Virus record (IMG/VR): IMGVR_UViG_3300042337_000280
Coordinates: 1-24,452 of that record
Length of the DNA stretch: 24,452 nt
Strand: one strand, 5' to 3'
Source of the DNA: a virus
The position numbers and the translations under genes are program-made. Below, one piece after another: positions 305-22,868 of the stretch. The notes below the pieces were generated by a model. That model saw only the letters and a program-made list of their open reading frames with translations, did no database searches and had not been told where the DNA came from. The number at the start of each line of letters is the position of its first letter. Positions within the stretch are counted from its first letter, which is position 1.

Positions 305-353
305 TTGGTCGCGCCTCGGGGATGCCAGTCCGCCGGGGCAACCCAATCCTATA
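305..353 (-). promoter_or_regulatory. Putative promoter -10 plus 36-nt shared leader, copy 1
   Basis: On the minus strand a TATAGG hexamer (348-353) is followed after 7 nt by a 36-nt block (305-340) beginning TGCCCCGGCGG and ending GGCGCGACCAA, then 18 nt and the ATG at 286. The same 36 nt occurs without mismatch at 1073-1108 on the plus strand, also 7 nt after a TANNNT hexamer and just before an ATG. The spacing would put a transcription start at or next to the first base of the block, so it may be a 5' untranslated leader. No convincing -35 is seen. Confidence 0.4.
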
Positions 354-371
354 CCACACCCGCCGGCTGCG

Positions 372-515
372 CTACGGCTGCACCAGATCGAACACCCCCC
401 AGCCGACGATGACCGCCAACAGCAGCGCCAACGGCAGGGGCAGGGCACCCAGCAGCCAGACCATCAACGCGGCCACTAGGGCGACGGCAACGGTGATACG
501 GATCAGGTAGGGCAT
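372..515 (-). CDS. Small single-span membrane protein (47 aa)
   Basis: Reads ATG at 515 to TAG at 372. A strong GGAGG ribosome site lies just upstream of the ATG. The protein is almost entirely hydrophobic, with Leu/Val/Ala-rich segments at about residues 5-26 and 29-44 that are separated only by a Gly/Pro turn (LPLPL), and it ends FDLVQP. It could be one long or two short membrane segments. Its start lies inside the end of the preceding 49-aa gene (overlap 503-515), which suggests translational coupling. Together with the 39-aa membrane protein two genes upstream it looks like the small membrane genes of phage late or lysis regions (holin-like), but neither sequence nor neighbours prove this. 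Confidence 0.6.
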   Translation of the reverse strand: MPYLIRITVAVALVAALMVWLLGALPLPLALLLAVIVGWGVFDLVQP

Positions 516-652
516 GGTTCCTCCAGAAGCCACTGCGCGATCAGCCGCCACTGGTCCGGGGTGAGCGATGGCCTGGCGTGCAGGTAGTCGGCACGTTCAT
601 CGGCATCCTGTAGCAACTGCTGGGCGAGCTGTCGCTGGTGGTCGCGGATCAC
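503..652 (-). CDS. Small hydrophilic phage protein (49 aa, GTG start)
   Basis: Starts with GTG at 652, which shares its last base with the TAG stop of the upstream 39-aa gene (TAGTG junction), and ends with TGA at 503, inside the next gene. The product, VIRDHQRQLAQQLLQDADER and onward, is charged, Gln-rich and predicted helical, with the segment LTPDQWRLIAQWLLEE near the end. It has no membrane segment. The tight overlaps on both sides, with small membrane proteins before and after, point to one co-translated unit. A helical cytoplasmic protein between two membrane peptides could be a partner of either. Function unknown. Confidence 0.6.
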   Translation of the reverse strand: MIRDHQRQLAQQLLQDADERADYLHARPSLTPDQWRLIAQWLLEEPCPT

Positions 653-771
653 TACTCGGTCCACTGGACCCTGACCAACGCTGCGAAAAACAACGCGGTA
701 AACAGCAGCAGGGGCGACATTCCTGCTGCCAGCATCGCAACCTCGGTCCAGGAATAGTTGGGGCAGGTCAT
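652..771 (-). CDS. Small single-span membrane protein (39 aa)
   Basis: ATG at 771, TAG at 652. The 39-residue product starts MTCPNYSWTEVAMLAAGMSP and has one hydrophobic helix at about residues 11-33 (LLLFTALFFAALV), then a short polar tail RVQWTE. An N-out, C-in single-span topology is possible. It overlaps the following GTG-start gene by one base. The ribosome site is not strong. It is the first gene of the three-gene micro-operon 771-372. Holin, pinholin or antiholin are possibilities based only on size, topology and location. Confidence 0.55.
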   Translation of the reverse strand: MTCPNYSWTEVAMLAAGMSPLLLFTALFFAALVRVQWTE

Positions 772-808
772 AAGAGGTAGGGCATGGTAGTGGCCGAATC
801 TACTACGG

Positions 809-1063
809 CTACGGTTTTGGAACCCACCGCAACGCAGATTCTAAAACCTCGGTTTCAGGATCGTCCGCGAGGTATTGGCCTGCGCTGTTCCGGGGCTGGT
901 CGTAAATCCATTCGCTGCCATCTGGCGCAGTCCATGGTTGGAACCTCGTCGGGTTCTCGGGCCACTGCCATGCCACTGCCTGGAGTCCCGCCTGCAGCCC
1001 ACTGATGAACGCCTGCGGCAGTCGCGACCTGCGATACCATGCGTTCGGCTGTCCAGTGCTACC
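809..1063 (-). pseudogene. 5'-truncated paralogue of the tail protein at 1707-2327
   Basis: An 85-codon open frame between an in-frame TAG (1064-1066) and the TAG at 809. It has no ATG and only a weak internal GTG at 976. The translation aligns with the C-terminus of the tail protein encoded at 1707-2327: LPQAF matches LPAAF, TAPDGSEW matches TSPTGTLY, GQYLADDPETEVLESALRWV matches GQFLPDDPQTPPRESLRWVV, and both end in a Pro-containing tail. Only about the last 65-70 residues of the parent remain. The 5' part is replaced by the leader and promoter of the plus-strand gene at 1131. It reads as the remnant of a duplicated tail gene cut by insertion of that gene. Expression as a 55-aa peptide from GTG is possible but unsupported. 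Confidence 0.65.
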
Positions 1064-1108
1064 CTATTTATGTGCCCCGGCGGACTGGCATCCCCGAGGC
1101 GCGACCAA
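1060..1108 (+). promoter_or_regulatory. Putative promoter -10 plus 36-nt shared leader, copy 2
   Basis: TACCCT (1060-1065), preceded by TG-N as in an extended -10, is followed after exactly 7 nt by the 36-nt block at 1073-1108. This block is identical to the reverse complement of 305-340. The ATG of the plus-strand gene follows 22 nt after the block, with an AGGAG ribosome site in between. The equal -10 spacing in both copies supports a shared promoter/leader cassette. The -35 position is poor. Confidence 0.4.
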
Positions 1109-1706: not shown

Positions 1707-2327
1707 TCATGGCTCAACCACCACCCACCGCAGGGATTCCCTGGGCGGGGTCTGTGGGTCATCGGGGAGGAACTGCCCATCCTCCCCAGCGGCCTGGGCT
1801 ACCCGGTAGAGGGTGCCGGTGGGGGAGGTCCATTCCTGGCCGAGGTTCTGGGCCGGAGGCGGCACCGTCAGCGCCTCGGTGAAAGCGGCTGGCAGATCAA
1901 ACCCCTGCGCCATGCTCAGCACCCCAGCCAGCAGCTGATCAGAGATCAGGCCCAGCCCACGGGCCATCGACCAGGAGTCGAGAAACACCCGAGCATCCCC
2001 ATCGGCAGCCTTGCCGAGGCCCACACCCAACCCAAGGCCTAGGGCCGGAAGCTGCTGCAGGGCCGTTCCTAGGAGTTGATTGATCGCCTCGGAGGCCTGC
2101 ACTGCGGAGCCAAACTGCACCCACTGAGCATCGGACTGACCATTGATTCCCCAAAATGCTTCGGCTATCTGGCGACTGTCAAACCAGTACCAATCATCTA
2201 CTGGGTAGATGTAATCAGCGTGGTTTGCGGCGGTTAGCGTAAATCCTGGCGCGTAAACGCTGGTGCCTGCATACTGGAGCAGGTCATCGGTGAACTTGTA
2301 GAAACCGGGGTAGGACATGGCGATCAT
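1707..2327 (-). CDS. Distal tail or fibre-associated protein
   Basis: Starts at ATG 2327 (MIAMSYPGFYKF), whose first A is the last base of the preceding gene's TAA (TAATG). A second in-frame ATG is three codons on, and an upstream ATG at 2345 would overlap the fibre gene by 19 nt. It encodes 206 aa: an aromatic-rich N-terminus (YIYPVDDWYWFDSRQ), a Gly/Leu-rich middle (LGLGLGVGLG) and a C-terminal module ending ESLRWVVVEP. That C-terminal module recurs in the broken copy at 809-1063. It is the last gene of the structural operon and directly follows the fibre, so a role at the fibre (chaperone, tip or accessory subunit) is an inference from position. No family is recognised with certainty. Confidence 0.7.
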   Translation of the reverse strand: MIAMSYPGFYKFTDDLLQYAGTSVYAPGFTLTAANHADYIYPVDDWYWFDSRQIAEAFWGINGQSDAQWVQFGSAVQASEAINQLLGTALQQLPALGLGLGVGLGKAADGDARVFLDSWSMARGLGLISDQLLAGVLSMAQGFDLPAAFTEALTVPPPAQNLGQEWTSPTGTLYRVAQAAGEDGQFLPDDPQTPPRESLRWVVVEP

Positions 2328-3967
2328 TAGGCGGTAACGGTCCACCCTTTGGCGGTGGCAATGGTGGGGTCGTAGCCTGCTCCATTGATGCCGTAGTTGC
2401 CGGTTACAGTGATTGTTTGGCCGGTAACAACAGGCAGGCCGGTGAATAGTTCGTTCAGTGCGGCGGCTGATAACTTGCAGCTGGCTACAGAGAATGAGAA
2501 GCGCATTCCTGTAAGCTGGGCACGGGCGAGGGATGAGCAGTTGGCGACAAAGTTTGCGGCATTTGCTGCTGAGGAAATGCCGCTCATGTCAAGCGGCGGG
2601 ATGCTTTCCAGGGAGGTGCAGCCTTGGAACATGCTGCTCATGTTCGTAACTGCTGCAACACTGCCTGGAAATACAGGGATTGTTTGCAGACTGCTGCAGC
2701 TTTGGAACATGCTGCTCATGTTCGTAACTGCTGCAACACTGCCTGGAAATGCAGGGATTGTTTGCAGACTGCTGCAGTTTTGGAACATGCTGCTCATGTT
2801 CGTAACTGCTGCAACACTGCCTGGAAATACAGGGATTGTTTGCAGACTGAAGCAGCCTTGGAACATGCCGCCCATGTTCGTAACTGCTGCAACACTGCCT
2901 GGAAATACAGGGATTGTTTGCAGACTGCTGCAGCTTTGGAACATGGTAGCCATGTTCGTAACTGCTGCAACACTTCCTGGAAATGCAAGGATTGCTTGCA
3001 GACTGCTGCAGCCGCTGAACATGCTGCTCATGTTCGTAACTGCTGCAACACTGCCTGGAAATACAGGGATTGTTTGCAGACTGGGGCAGCCGCTGAACAT
3101 GCTGCTCATGTTCGTAACTGCTGTGGCATTAGGCAGTGACGGCAGCGATTGCAATGAGCGGCAGCCCTGAAACAGGGTTGATGCCATACTCGTCAACGCA
3201 CCAACCGATACAATGTTGATCCGCTCTACATTTGCGTGAACAACAGTCGTCGAACCCCCAATCGTTAATCCCGTGCCACTGACCTGCGGCAATGCCATCG
3301 CAATATCCAGCCATCCTGTCGCATAACCATTCACCAACCCCGTCTGTCCATGCTTCTGAAAGAAGTTGGCAACTGTTAGGTTCTGTCCTGCCTGTGGTGT
3401 AATCGTCACTACCGCCACCTTATACGGCAGCAACGTGGCCGAACCGTCACCCGTAAACGTTACCGGACTGCCGCCAGCAGTCAGCGAAACTTGGAACGTA
3501 TTTGCTGCTGCATTAACAACAAAATACCGCTGCTTCGCAACAATTCCCGTTGTGGTAACAATGCTGTAGAACCGTACAATCGCGCCATTGCTCAGCCCAT
3601 GAGCCGTGCGGTTGACAGTGCTAGTTGCAGCCGTAAACGTAACCGGCGCATTCGTTCCAGCCAGCGCAGCAGAGTTAAAGTCAAACTCATAATCTGCTCT
3701 GGCATTGCTTGCATAGTTCGTCGTCGTCCCATCGCCATAATTGATGATGTAGGCGCCTTGGGCTAAGAATGCGAAAAAGTTGCCACCCTTGCCAACACCA
3801 TCGCCAGGCCACACCGCATAGAGGCCAACGATCTTCTGCTCTGCCGCGCCAGGTGCGGTCAACGCTGGCCACGCCGCATTTCGCACCCACTCGTCAGCCG
3901 CTGCACCACCCGCACCGCCTGCTACCAGCGTGCTGCCCAGATAGATTTTCCCAGTAGTCGTAGGCAT
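2327..3967 (-). CDS. Tail fibre with BspA-like leucine-rich repeats
   Basis: A 546-aa protein. Residues 1-60 form an N-terminal virion-type region. Residues about 70-100 (YIINYGDGTTT, YEFDF) and 180-205 (LPYKVAVVTITPQAG) look like two halves of a PKD-like beta-sandwich seen in phage fibres. Between them, about 107-178, sits a second module (NRTAHGLSNGAIVRF, NTFQVSLTAGG) of the FCCH type common in phage tail proteins. Residues about 266-470 carry seven near-identical 26-residue repeats of the form MFxxCxSLQTIPVFPGS followed by AAVTNMSS, i.e. BspA/DUF285-type leucine-rich repeats used for surface binding. The C-terminus is ITVTGNYGINGAGYDP and onward. The likely role is receptor recognition at the virion surface. 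It starts 2 nt after the upstream fibre's stop. Repeat identity at DNA level implies recent expansion or ongoing recombination. Confidence 0.8.
   Translation of the reverse strand: MPTTTGKIYLGSTLVAGGAGGAAADEWVRNAAWPALTAPGAAEQKIVGLYAVWPGDGVGKGGNFFAFLAQGAYIINYGDGTTTNYASNARADYEFDFNSAALAGTNAPVTFTAATSTVNRTAHGLSNGAIVRFYSIVTTTGIVAKQRYFVVNAAANTFQVSLTAGGSPVTFTGDGSATLLPYKVAVVTITPQAGQNLTVANFFQKHGQTGLVNGYATGWLDIAMALPQVSGTGLTIGGSTTVVHANVERINIVSVGALTSMASTLFQGCRSLQSLPSLPNATAVTNMSSMFSGCPSLQTIPVFPGSVAAVTNMSSMFSGCSSLQAILAFPGSVAAVTNMATMFQSCSSLQTIPVFPGSVAAVTNMGGMFQGCFSLQTIPVFPGSVAAVTNMSSMFQNCSSLQTIPAFPGSVAAVTNMSSMFQSCSSLQTIPVFPGSVAAVTNMSSMFQGCTSLESIPPLDMSGISSAANAANFVANCSSLARAQLTGMRFSFSVASCKLSAAALNELFTGLPVVTGQTITVTGNYGINGAGYDPTIATAKGWTVTA
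2615..3130 (-). repeat. 78-bp tandem repeat array inside the fibre gene
   Basis: The marker GTTCGTAACTGCTG (plus-strand reading) begins at 2642, 2720, 2798, 2876, 2954, 3032 and 3110, exactly 78 bp apart, giving seven copies of a 26-codon unit. More diverged half-units extend to about 2598 and 3170. Copies differ mainly at a few codons, next to the conserved Cys (P/S/F/R/T) and in the I-P-V/A positions. The period is a multiple of three, so gain or loss of units keeps the reading frame. Confidence 0.9.
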
Positions 3968-8224: not shown

Positions 8225-9919
8225 CTATGAATCCCCTTCCGTACCCATTCCCGGCAGAGCAGCCGCTGTCGTCCCATTCTGTTGCTCAGGCAGGCCCAGC
8301 CTTCTCCGCAACGCCACCTCGTACGCAATCTGCGCCCAAGTGCTCTCCAGATCAGTTCCATAAAGCTCTGCCATCTGGTCAGAGGTTGACTGCAGTCCCA
8401 TTTCCTGCGCATCCTTATACGCTTTCATCTCCTTCGCGGGATCTACCCAGCTCCATGTGCGGGCCTGCCAGCGTGGGGACGTGTAAAGCTCTGGCTCGTT
8501 CCAATAGTTGCCAAATAACTCAACAGGCAAAACGCCAGCCATTACGGCAGCATCAACCCATTCTTCAAACACTCGCTGGTGGAATTGCTGGATAAACAAA
8601 GACTGCATAACCCGATACCAATCCCGAACCTCCAGCTTCTCTTCACGCATGGAGCTGTAATTAGCATCACTGTGATCGCCGCTGATTGCTGAGTAGCTGC
8701 TGGTAATGCCAGTCGAAAACCGGCGCAGCATTGTCTTTAGTACAATCTCAAACTGGTTATCATCAGGGCCAAATTGCGGCGGATACGGCTGCTCCCCAGG
8801 ATTCAGCTCAACCCATTGCCCCGGTGAGCTGCGAGACAGTATCTCCCCAGTGCTTGGGTCTTGCTCATCCGCCAAACCTGAGGATGCCCCTTCATTGGGA
8901 TCCTCTTCCTTCTTGCCGACAAACCCAAGAATGTTGTTGACAATCCGCTTCCGGGTCCAGTGGGACTTTTCATATTCGTTGATATTGTGAATCGTCGTCA
9001 GAACTGGCGCTAGGTGGGGGATTTCACGGAGCTGCCCGATTTCATCGGGAATGAAAACATGAATCAAATCCCTTGCGTCTACAAAATAATGCTTAGGCTC
9101 ATTGCTCAGTGGATCGCCTGGGTCGCTATTGCCCGGGTGCCGCCGCAATACCGCATACCGCGTAACACGTCCGCCACGACGATCATCGGTCTCAACACCA
9201 AGTCGCCAAAAATGGCCAGGCCGATCTGACATGCCATTGTAATCTTCATCAAGCTGATCAACGCTCAATAACTCGAAGCAAAGCTGTTCACGTCTAGGAT
9301 TATTATTGGCAGATGATCGAATAATTCGAACCATTGCGCCACCGTGCGTTTGAAACGCACCAGCAATCATCAGCTCAAACTGATGAAACGAATATCGCCC
9401 GGCAAGATCAAACGTATCAGGCTTGCAAAACTGCTTCCACTTCGCTTCCAGAACTTGATTCCTGACATCATCACGCTCTAGCGCAGTCTGCGCCAGAATC
9501 ATTCGATCAAGCGCTGCATCCAATGCTCGCCCTTGCTCACCCCTCGCCAGCAGCCGTGCAATCTCCATTGATACCTCAGCCCGCGCCCTGCCCGCTTGTC
9601 GATCGCTCCGGCCACCAAGCGGGATCTGACCACGCATCTGCACACCTCGGGCGCCAATCACATTGATCTGCATGCTCCGCACTGCACGCCGGGCATACGG
9701 ATTCAACAGCGCCTGATAACGACACTTAGACCTAATCCCTTTCAATCCACCCCGCAGCATCGCCTGAGGATCGACAAACACTCCAGGCATGTCGCCCAAC
9801 AGTCTTCCCCCAAGGTGGCCTGCTAGCCCTTGCTGCGCCCGCGCTTTTCGTGCTCGCGGGCCAGGGCCAGACTCCCAAACCCTGCGAGCAAAACCCTTCG
9901 CTCTGCCAATCAAACTCAT
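8225..9919 (-). CDS. Portal protein, lambda gpB-like family
   Basis: A 564-aa protein, in the usual range for lambda-type portals. Typical features in order: a basic N-terminus, LKGIRSKCRYQALLNPYARRA then INVIGARGVQMRG (about 60-98); KQFCKPDTFDLAGRYSFHQFELMIAGAFQTHGG spans the conserved central helix; FELLSVDQLDEDYN; KHYFVDARDLIHVFIPDEIGQLREIPHLAPVL is the membrane-distal wing segment; AISGDHSDANYSSMREEKLE is the portal signature; and WSWVDPAKEMKAYKDAQEMGL is the conserved C-terminal block. It forms the dodecameric DNA gate at one head vertex and contacts the terminase. Its ATG overlaps the upstream connector gene's TGA by four bases, and the capsid gene starts 26 nt after its stop. Confidence 0.93.
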   Translation of the reverse strand: MSLIGRAKGFARRVWESGPGPRARKARAQQGLAGHLGGRLLGDMPGVFVDPQAMLRGGLKGIRSKCRYQALLNPYARRAVRSMQINVIGARGVQMRGQIPLGGRSDRQAGRARAEVSMEIARLLARGEQGRALDAALDRMILAQTALERDDVRNQVLEAKWKQFCKPDTFDLAGRYSFHQFELMIAGAFQTHGGAMVRIIRSSANNNPRREQLCFELLSVDQLDEDYNGMSDRPGHFWRLGVETDDRRGGRVTRYAVLRRHPGNSDPGDPLSNEPKHYFVDARDLIHVFIPDEIGQLREIPHLAPVLTTIHNINEYEKSHWTRKRIVNNILGFVGKKEEDPNEGASSGLADEQDPSTGEILSRSSPGQWVELNPGEQPYPPQFGPDDNQFEIVLKTMLRRFSTGITSSYSAISGDHSDANYSSMREEKLEVRDWYRVMQSLFIQQFHQRVFEEWVDAAVMAGVLPVELFGNYWNEPELYTSPRWQARTWSWVDPAKEMKAYKDAQEMGLQSTSDQMAELYGTDLESTWAQIAYEVALRRRLGLPEQQNGTTAAALPGMGTEGDS

Positions 9920-22014: not shown

Positions 22015-22290
22015 ATGGACAACATCACACAGGTAAAGCAGCAGCTCGACACGTTGCTGCTGGAGCTAGAGCAACGGGAGACCGCAACAGCCCATGCGAT
22101 GGAGACCCTCACTGTGGACGACCGTGTGAGGGCTGCTTGGGTAGAGGCGACGATGGCTGAACGGTTCAGGGTGCTGGCGCTGATCGATGCACAGATTGGC
22201 CAGTTGAACGGCGCGGGGATGAACACGATCCTGTTGCGCTCGTTGCGCGGGGTGGTGGCAACAGAGACCAACAACGGAGACAACCAATGA
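22015..22290 (+). CDS. Small helical protein (91 aa), possible coiled coil
   Basis: ATG at 22015, directly after the ssb stop. The protein is almost all helix: ITQVKQQLDTLLLELEQRET shows regular Leu spacing, followed by DDRVRAAWVEATMAERFRVL and NTILLRSLRGVVA. It has no DNA-binding or catalytic motif. Its TGA overlaps the next ATG (ATGA), indicating coupling. It could be a small adaptor of the replication module. Function unknown. Confidence 0.65.
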   Translation: MDNITQVKQQLDTLLLELEQRETATAHAMETLTVDDRVRAAWVEATMAERFRVLALIDAQIGQLNGAGMNTILLRSLRGVVATETNNGDNQ

Positions 22291-22868
22291 TTACAGCACA
22301 GGAACTAGAGCTGCACGCCAAATCGCTGCGCGGCGAACCTGATGGTGTGCGACTGGTGAAAGTCGGGGCCGACCTGCGCGATTCCGACCTGCGCGATGCC
22401 TTCCTGCGCGATGCCGACCTGCGCGATTCCGACCTGCGCGATGCCTTCCTGCGGGGTGCCGTCCTGCGCGATGCCTTCCTGCGCGATGCCGTCCTGCGGG
22501 GTGCCGTCCTGCGCGATGCCGTCCTGCGGGATGCCGTCCTGCGGGGTGCCTTCCTGCGGGGTGCCGACCTGCGCGATGCCGTCGGCCTACCAATAGCAGC
22601 CGATGCAGCTGATCGCCTGAAAGCTGTAGCCGCTGCAGCATTACAACCTGATGCGCTGCAGATGTCCAATTGGCATACATGCGGCACCACGCATTGCATT
22701 GCGGGCTGGGCTATTCACTTGGCGGGCGAACCTGGCCGGCTGATGGAGTCAATGATGGGTCCAGAACTTGCTGGGTTGTTGTTGCTAGGGACAGAAGCGC
22801 ATCAGCATTTCTATGACAGGAATGAGAAGGCGCTGGAGTATTTGCGCGGGGTGGTGGCTGATGGCTGA
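22287..22868 (+). CDS. Pentapeptide-repeat protein with CGTTHC C-terminal domain
   Basis: A 193-aa protein. Residues about 26-95 are 14 consecutive pentapeptides of the form (R)(D/G)(A/S)(D/F/V)L, which fold as a right-handed square beta-helix. The C-terminal part (about 127-190) contains SNWHTCGTTHCIAGWAIHLA, then EPGRLMESMMGPELAGLLLL and a helical end. This domain recurs after pentapeptide repeats in cyanobacterial and phage proteins. Some pentapeptide proteins mimic DNA and protect gyrase, so interaction with a host topoisomerase or DNA enzyme is one possibility. The repeat loops here are unusually uniform. Its start overlaps the previous gene and its end overlaps the next. Confidence 0.8.
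   Translation: MITAQELELHAKSLRGEPDGVRLVKVGADLRDSDLRDAFLRDADLRDSDLRDAFLRGAVLRDAFLRDAVLRGAVLRDAVLRDAVLRGAFLRGADLRDAVGLPIAADAADRLKAVAAAALQPDALQMSNWHTCGTTHCIAGWAIHLAGEPGRLMESMMGPELAGLLLLGTEAHQHFYDRNEKALEYLRGVVADG
22368..22583 (+). repeat. 15-bp tandem repeats encoding pentapeptides
   Basis: Fourteen in-frame copies of a unit close to CTGCGCGATGCCGTC, with changes limited mostly to GAT/GGG and GAC/TTC/GTC codons. The near-identity at nucleotide level indicates recent slippage-type expansion. Because the unit is 15 bp, unit loss or gain keeps the frame. The apparent Arg- and Pro/Cys-rich open frames on the other strands here are mirrors of the repeat. Confidence 0.85.

Follow-up and report, generated by a model that had tools for sequence, protein, structure and literature searches.

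A two-hairpin element opposite the starts of accessory genes in picocyanobacteria and their phages, a putative antisense-RNA control unit

The DNA analysed here (the window, an IMG/VR virus record of 24,452 bp) carries one 36-nt sequence twice, in opposite orientation, upstream of two different accessory genes, which raises the question of what is being shared. The window encodes a terminase with 61% identity to that of S-LBS1, a freshwater Synechococcus phage. In a sequence check, 1073-1108 (+) was confirmed as the exact reverse complement of 305-340. As the original prediction held, the repeat is not a chance match, its 19-nt core (≤3 mismatches) being found twice in the window and never in 100 dinucleotide shuffles.

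The two copies and their setting in the window

Both 36-mers lie upstream of ATG-ACT, at 18 nt in copy A (start ATG at 286, minus strand) and 22 nt in copy B (start ATG at 1131, plus strand). A TANNNT hexamer had been placed 7 nt before each block. This is true of copy B (TACCCT, 1060-1065), but the copy A hexamer at 7 nt is TATAGG, which does not fit TANNNT, and the fitting hexamer, TAGGAT (351-346, minus), stands at 5 nt. The flanks had also been called otherwise different, which holds for promoters and genes but not for the stretch between 36-mer and ATG, which, with differing letters, completes an opposite-strand hairpin in both copies. The parts are as follows, with bit scores from R3, a covariance model of the family described below.

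1-286, minus: P0002, accessory gene downstream of copy A, 95+ aa, running off the contig
273-278, plus: copy A antisense -10 box CATAAT, within P0002 codons 3-5 (sequence; family statistics)
284-340, plus: copy A putative antisense RNA, two hairpins (R3 match, 66.4 bits; fold, -28.5 kcal/mol)
285-293 / 301-309, plus: copy A hairpin I arms
310-312, plus: copy A spacer between the hairpins
313-323 / 328-339, plus: copy A hairpin II arms, with bulged G332
346-351, minus: copy A sense -10 box TAGGAT; alternative TATAGG, 353-348 (sequence; family -10 profile)
378-387, no strand: boundary whose left side differs among sibling genomes (sibling comparison)
1060-1065, plus: copy B sense -10 box TACCCT (sequence; family -10 profile)
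1073-1133, minus: copy B putative antisense RNA (R3 match, 48.3 bits; fold, -31.9 kcal/mol)
1131-1685, plus: P0001, accessory gene downstream of copy B, 184 aa, of no known family
1139-1144, minus: copy B antisense -10 box TAGTCT, within the first P0001 codons (sequence; family statistics)

The 36-mer at 305-340 is thus the 3' part of the copy A putative antisense RNA. Hairpin II is identical in the two copies, and hairpin I of copy B is a fully paired 11-bp helix that differs from the likewise fully paired one of copy A. To judge from this layout, P0002 may be controlled by copy A and P0001 by copy B. P0001 lies on the strand opposite to the neighbouring structural genes; it has no Pfam or PHROG match, and its relatives in IMG/VR are identical siblings only. 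P0002 is also without a Pfam or PHROG match, and its N-terminus resembles those of leader-bearing genes at loci L335 and L368.

Six sibling contigs (L003-L008) are near-identical to the window rightwards from position 378 or 387 and carry copy B only. To the left of this boundary, three alleles exist among the window and its siblings: 1-386 with copy A and P0002 (the window), a 207-bp insert that carries the upstream frame on into a small Cys-rich protein (four contigs), and no insert (two contigs). This places copy A in a cassette that can be replaced, and the junction looks like an insertion hot spot. The junction lies at the 3' end of a small membrane-protein gene, and the frame extended by the 207-bp insert encodes a Cys-rich CNCRFWD protein. 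That the second copy is an assembly artefact or a chance repeat might be argued from the absence of 1-386 from all sibling contigs and from the fact that two copies with this hairpin II occur in this contig only. This is very hard to credit, however, as hairpin I of copy A is of the family type (CTCA/TGAG), which copy B lacks and could not have provided, other loci hold related genes with the leader, and about 150 further contigs as well as cultured phages carry the element. For the family as a whole, artefact and chance are already excluded.

Other features of the window were also noted. By reading, the minus strand at 810-1040 holds a startless remnant resembling the C-terminus of the ORF at 1707-2345 (-), and P0001 with copy B stands between the two C-termini, an arrangement that suggests insertion of the cassette next to a displaced gene end. 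Seven 78-nt direct repeats (2520-3221) lie within a predicted tail-fibre-like ORF (2327-3967), and fourteen 15-nt repeats (22323-22622) encode a pentapeptide-repeat-like protein (ORF 22287-22868).

An element family before unrelated genes

Diverged versions were first sought among TerL relatives, yielding matches of 23 to 29 of the 36 positions, several with a matching -10 box and ATG. The family was then extended with covariance models R1, R2 and R3 and two degenerate pattern scans, the first of which fixed parts of hairpin II and the second of which was made without it. About 150 distinct IMG/VR contigs carry the element (hand count, duplicate contigs removed). All 58 loci newly fetched with the second pattern match the model, one being cut by the contig end, and hairpin II covaries in them at 9 of 9 tested pairs. 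The viral contigs are all metagenomic, cultured phages excepted. The cultured Synechococcus phages S-CBP1 and S-CBP3 carry the element before an unannotated 63-aa ribbon-helix-helix gene:

KC310802 45638-45826, minus: unannotated 63-aa ribbon-helix-helix gene of S-CBP1, element at 45824-45883
KC310803 8179-8367, minus: unannotated 63-aa ribbon-helix-helix gene of S-CBP3, element at 8365-8424

S-SRP02 has a related ribbon-helix-helix gene and lacks the element; weak matches in this phage (L377) and in S-LBS1 (L023) were treated as chance, as were L189, the second L202 match and L376. At the loci of P0002 homologs found by protein search, R1 gave nothing above noise. Cellular matches came from two samples of genomes. 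In one, drawn from the phylum of a cyanobacterial genome (Oculatella), 2 of 386 had a match, and in the other, drawn from the family to which one positive genome belongs, 8 of 400 did. The matching genomes are picocyanobacteria-like (1.3-4.1 Mb), and their copies precede genes for ribbon-helix-helix proteins, a serine resolvase and an integrase-like protein, as well as one unknown gene. An exact 17-mer scan of cellular genomes returned 31 matches over scattered unrelated taxa, about the chance expectation, and was set aside. Plasmids gave no good element match. Against Rfam 15, the element region had no match even at E up to 5 and the rest of the window only sub-threshold, unrelated ones, and a literature search found no paper on this motif. 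The ~57-bp module is previously undescribed, and its structured RNA family is absent from Rfam 15.

The original prediction would have been undermined by a 36-mer common without a start codon behind it. The element is indeed common, and an ATG stands at the fixed place in all confirmed IMG/VR members and both cultured-phage members examined, a position that the second pattern required and the first did not. The exceptions are host copies, L305 being without an intact ATG at this place and L311 being followed by a short broken frame.

There is strong support from sequence that the element precedes unrelated genes, mostly those of homing-type nucleases and ribbon-helix-helix proteins. Among 63 downstream proteins, Pfam assigned 29 to HNH, 10 to RHH_5, 6 to HNH_3, 4 to NUMOD4, 1 to endonuclease VII and 1 to resolvase, these classes overlapping; others are orphans or Cys-rich proteins that Pfam does not recognise. 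The same gene can follow elements with differing hairpin II (L324/L345, L322/L339). A AAGGTTGC motif recurs upstream of the sense -10 box in many homing-nuclease cassettes (for example L148, L206 and L171) and is perhaps an insertion-site feature or an activator site.

The mobility of these cassettes might suit an element acting at the DNA level, as a single-strand hairpin or a dual protein-binding site for cassette recombination or replication. However, its placing is fixed relative to the ATG and both -10 boxes, the genes and genomes are unrelated, and a shared recombinase was not found, all of which makes such a role decidedly unlikely. The wobble pairs described below would also suit it, G.T being the better tolerated mismatch in DNA as well. 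Integron attC-like and REP/IS605-like hairpins were also dropped, since their core sequences do not appear to fit and a common recombinase was not found.

Strand of the fold and the facing -10 boxes

The conserved structure spans ~57 nt from the complement of the ATG and, read on the antisense strand, consists of a 9-bp hairpin, a 3-nt spacer, and a second hairpin of 7 bp, a bulged G and 3 bp. Across 63 sequences, 99.9% of 1196 pair cells are paired. Double changes occur at 13 of the 19 pairs, in 218 cells against at most 33 in slid controls, these cells not being independent events because the members are phylogenetically related. The covariance model of the leader that the original prediction had asked for, run on these relatives, proved the decisive test.

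An initial model placed the hairpins on the sense side. It sufficed to find the family, yet it gave no account of the C.A mismatches or of a conserved, supposedly "unpaired" linker, and it gave way to the antisense fold when the polarity of the wobble pairs was counted. In the outer helix of hairpin II, a sense reading contains 64 A.C/C.A cells, which are G.U on the antisense strand only, against 4 sense G.U cells, counts that are biased because the first pattern fixed parts of this hairpin. In the set not selected via hairpin II, antisense wobbles occur in 11 distinct helices and a sense wobble in 1. Hairpin I shows the same polarity in 88 elements, with 620 Watson-Crick pairs, 227 antisense-only G.U and 2 sense-only G.U. 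Given this polarity in both hairpins, the linker GACCAAC and the start-codon segment GCTGATG are read as the two arms of one antisense helix. RNAalifold recovered the two hairpins (19 bp, -31.7 kcal/mol) unaided from the antisense alignment, compared with -14.0 kcal/mol for the sense alignment, and the antisense strand folds more stably in 90 of 90 elements (mean z of -4.3 versus -1.7 for sense). It is therefore strongly supported, at the level of sequence, that the fold lies on the strand opposite the gene, where its 19-bp two-hairpin structure takes in the complement of the AUG.

A sense 5' leader would instead have mRNA hairpins setting stability or hiding the ribosome-binding site (RBS), with the facing -10 box as secondary. 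The sense -10 box puts the 5' end at a hairpin, the pairs covary on the sense strand too, and in T4-like phages homing endonuclease genes rely on RBS hairpins (PMC2988022). The conserved A.C mismatches of the sense strand are nevertheless antisense G.U pairs. Occlusion of the RBS is also unsupported, the RBS region being 0.43 unpaired against 0.41 in shuffles, and the antisense -10 box within codons 3-5 would go unexplained. We consider a sense leader unlikely.

Each end of the module has a -10 box just outside it, the two facing each other, an arrangement strongly supported by the family sequences. For 58 of 78 genes the element is preceded at 4-5 nt by a sense TANNNT (background, 0-1 per position), and an antisense TANNNT lies 4-6 nt from the CAT in 55 of 78, with at most 1 at any other distance. 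The antisense -10 box coincides with codons 3-5 of unrelated proteins, which allows it to be tested through synonymous codon usage. Where codon 5 encodes V, L or I, it is NTA in 28 of 29 cases compared with 16% elsewhere (p = 2.6e-21), and codon 3 ends in A in 56 of the 72 cases where this base is synonymous, compared with 27% (p = 5e-19). In many ribbon-helix-helix and host copies the antisense -10 is only nAnnAT. The family profile showed no conserved -35 for either -10 box, and no clear terminator of the antisense RNA was seen, with no T-run after hairpin II.

An antisense -10 box placed exactly before two hairpins also recalls the put RNAs of phage HK022, which are about 70 nt long, have two stem-loops and need no protein factor (PMC9378689), so the nascent RNA could act on RNA polymerase as an antiterminator for upstream genes. 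The upstream gene, however, lies on the strand of the accessory gene in 43 of 66 cases (longest ORF as proxy) and thus opposes such a transcript, which makes this role less likely; in addition, the module is bound to the AUG of the accessory gene and not to an operon. We regard antitermination as improbable.

Much of the original prediction has stood, namely a mobile promoter/leader unit with its own -10 box that serves stand-alone, moron-like accessory genes, and the suggestion of an RNA element, now borne out by a covarying two-hairpin fold. Its account of extent and strand has not, and it overlooked a second -10 box. The 36-mer is the conserved part only of a ~57-bp module that includes the start codon, it corresponds for the most part to hairpin II in a putative antisense RNA whose structure is conserved opposite the gene strand, and the second -10 box, facing the first, lies within codons 3-5 of the gene.

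Proposed mechanism and comparison with known systems

We propose, with a probability of roughly two in three, that the module is a portable antisense-RNA control unit with facing promoters, akin to IS10 RNA-IN/RNA-OUT; transcription of both strands, and repression by the antisense product, are inferred from sequence features. The sigma70-type upstream -10 box would start the mRNA at the outer edge of the module, which is the outer edge of hairpin II. Antisense transcription would begin opposite the AUG, driven by the facing box in codons 3-5, and the two RNAs would then overlap along the entire leader. The antisense RNA is predicted to form two stable hairpins. The mRNA would be more open, because the fixed antisense G.U pairs become A.C mismatches in its leader (AUG 0.59 unpaired against 0.51 in shuffles, RBS region 0.43 against 0.41), suggesting that the placement of G.U pairs can fold one strand and leave its complement more open. 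Since its complementarity extends over the entire leader, the ribosome-binding region and the AUG, the antisense RNA most likely represses translation, an effect to which polymerase collision may add. With such a brake, a newly arrived homing endonuclease, recombinase or regulator would be expressed briefly and then silenced. Since the P0001 and P0002 leaders have a common hairpin II, each antisense RNA could touch the mRNA of the other gene.

The odds seem to us about even for a wider reading, in which many independent selfish genes, found in picocyanobacteria and their phages and encoding homing nucleases, recombinases, small regulators that bind DNA, or orphan proteins, have taken up one transferable antisense-RNA cassette as a common dose limiter. 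The cassette would lie outside the known RNA families and be written partly in synonymous codon positions, and copies that have a common hairpin would cross-talk within one phage. The element provides a sequence handle on uncharacterised accessory genes of picocyanobacterial phages, and codons 3-5 are a clean case of promoter information imposed on protein genes.

No family of Rfam 15 has anything in common with the element, and no covariance-model match was found. Nearer parallels exist. The put RNA of HK022, about 70 nt with two stem-loops, forms directly after a phage promoter without a protein factor (PMC9378689), and the present element likewise has two predicted stem-loops directly downstream of a -10 box; put, however, is the leader of long early operons, whereas the RNA here faces an accessory gene and usually opposes the upstream gene. 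In T4 and Aeh1, the homing endonuclease genes I-TevI to I-TevIII, segB and mobE have RBS-sequestering hairpins that are thought to time expression (PMC2988022). Both thus have structured RNA where phage homing endonuclease genes begin, but those hairpins are on the mRNA strand and gene-specific, whereas the conserved fold here is antisense and shared across gene families, and the RBS region pairs no more than it does in shuffles.

Of working systems, the closest is RNA-OUT of IS10/Tn10, where pIN and pOUT face each other and the translation start is matched by the complementary sequence of a short structured antisense RNA (PMC5006887). Here too, to judge from the sequence, a promoter within the coding sequence faces the gene (antisense TANNNT in codons 3-5, 55 of 78), and the predicted 19-bp two-hairpin antisense fold covers the translation start of a DNA-acting gene of a mobile element. 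The controlled genes are not IS transposases as in IS10 but HNH-type nucleases, ribbon-helix-helix proteins, a resolvase and orphans. Unlike IS10, the module has two tandem hairpins, holds both starts at the edges of one ~57-bp block, and serves many unrelated gene families in cyanobacteria and their phages. Selfish genes need to act on arrival and then do no harm to their carrier, and the solutions of IS10 and the T4 endonucleases are each specific to one gene or element. If the proposed mechanism is true, a portable antisense module would be a common solution for unrelated mobile genes, which is testable in the cultured phages S-CBP1 and S-CBP3.
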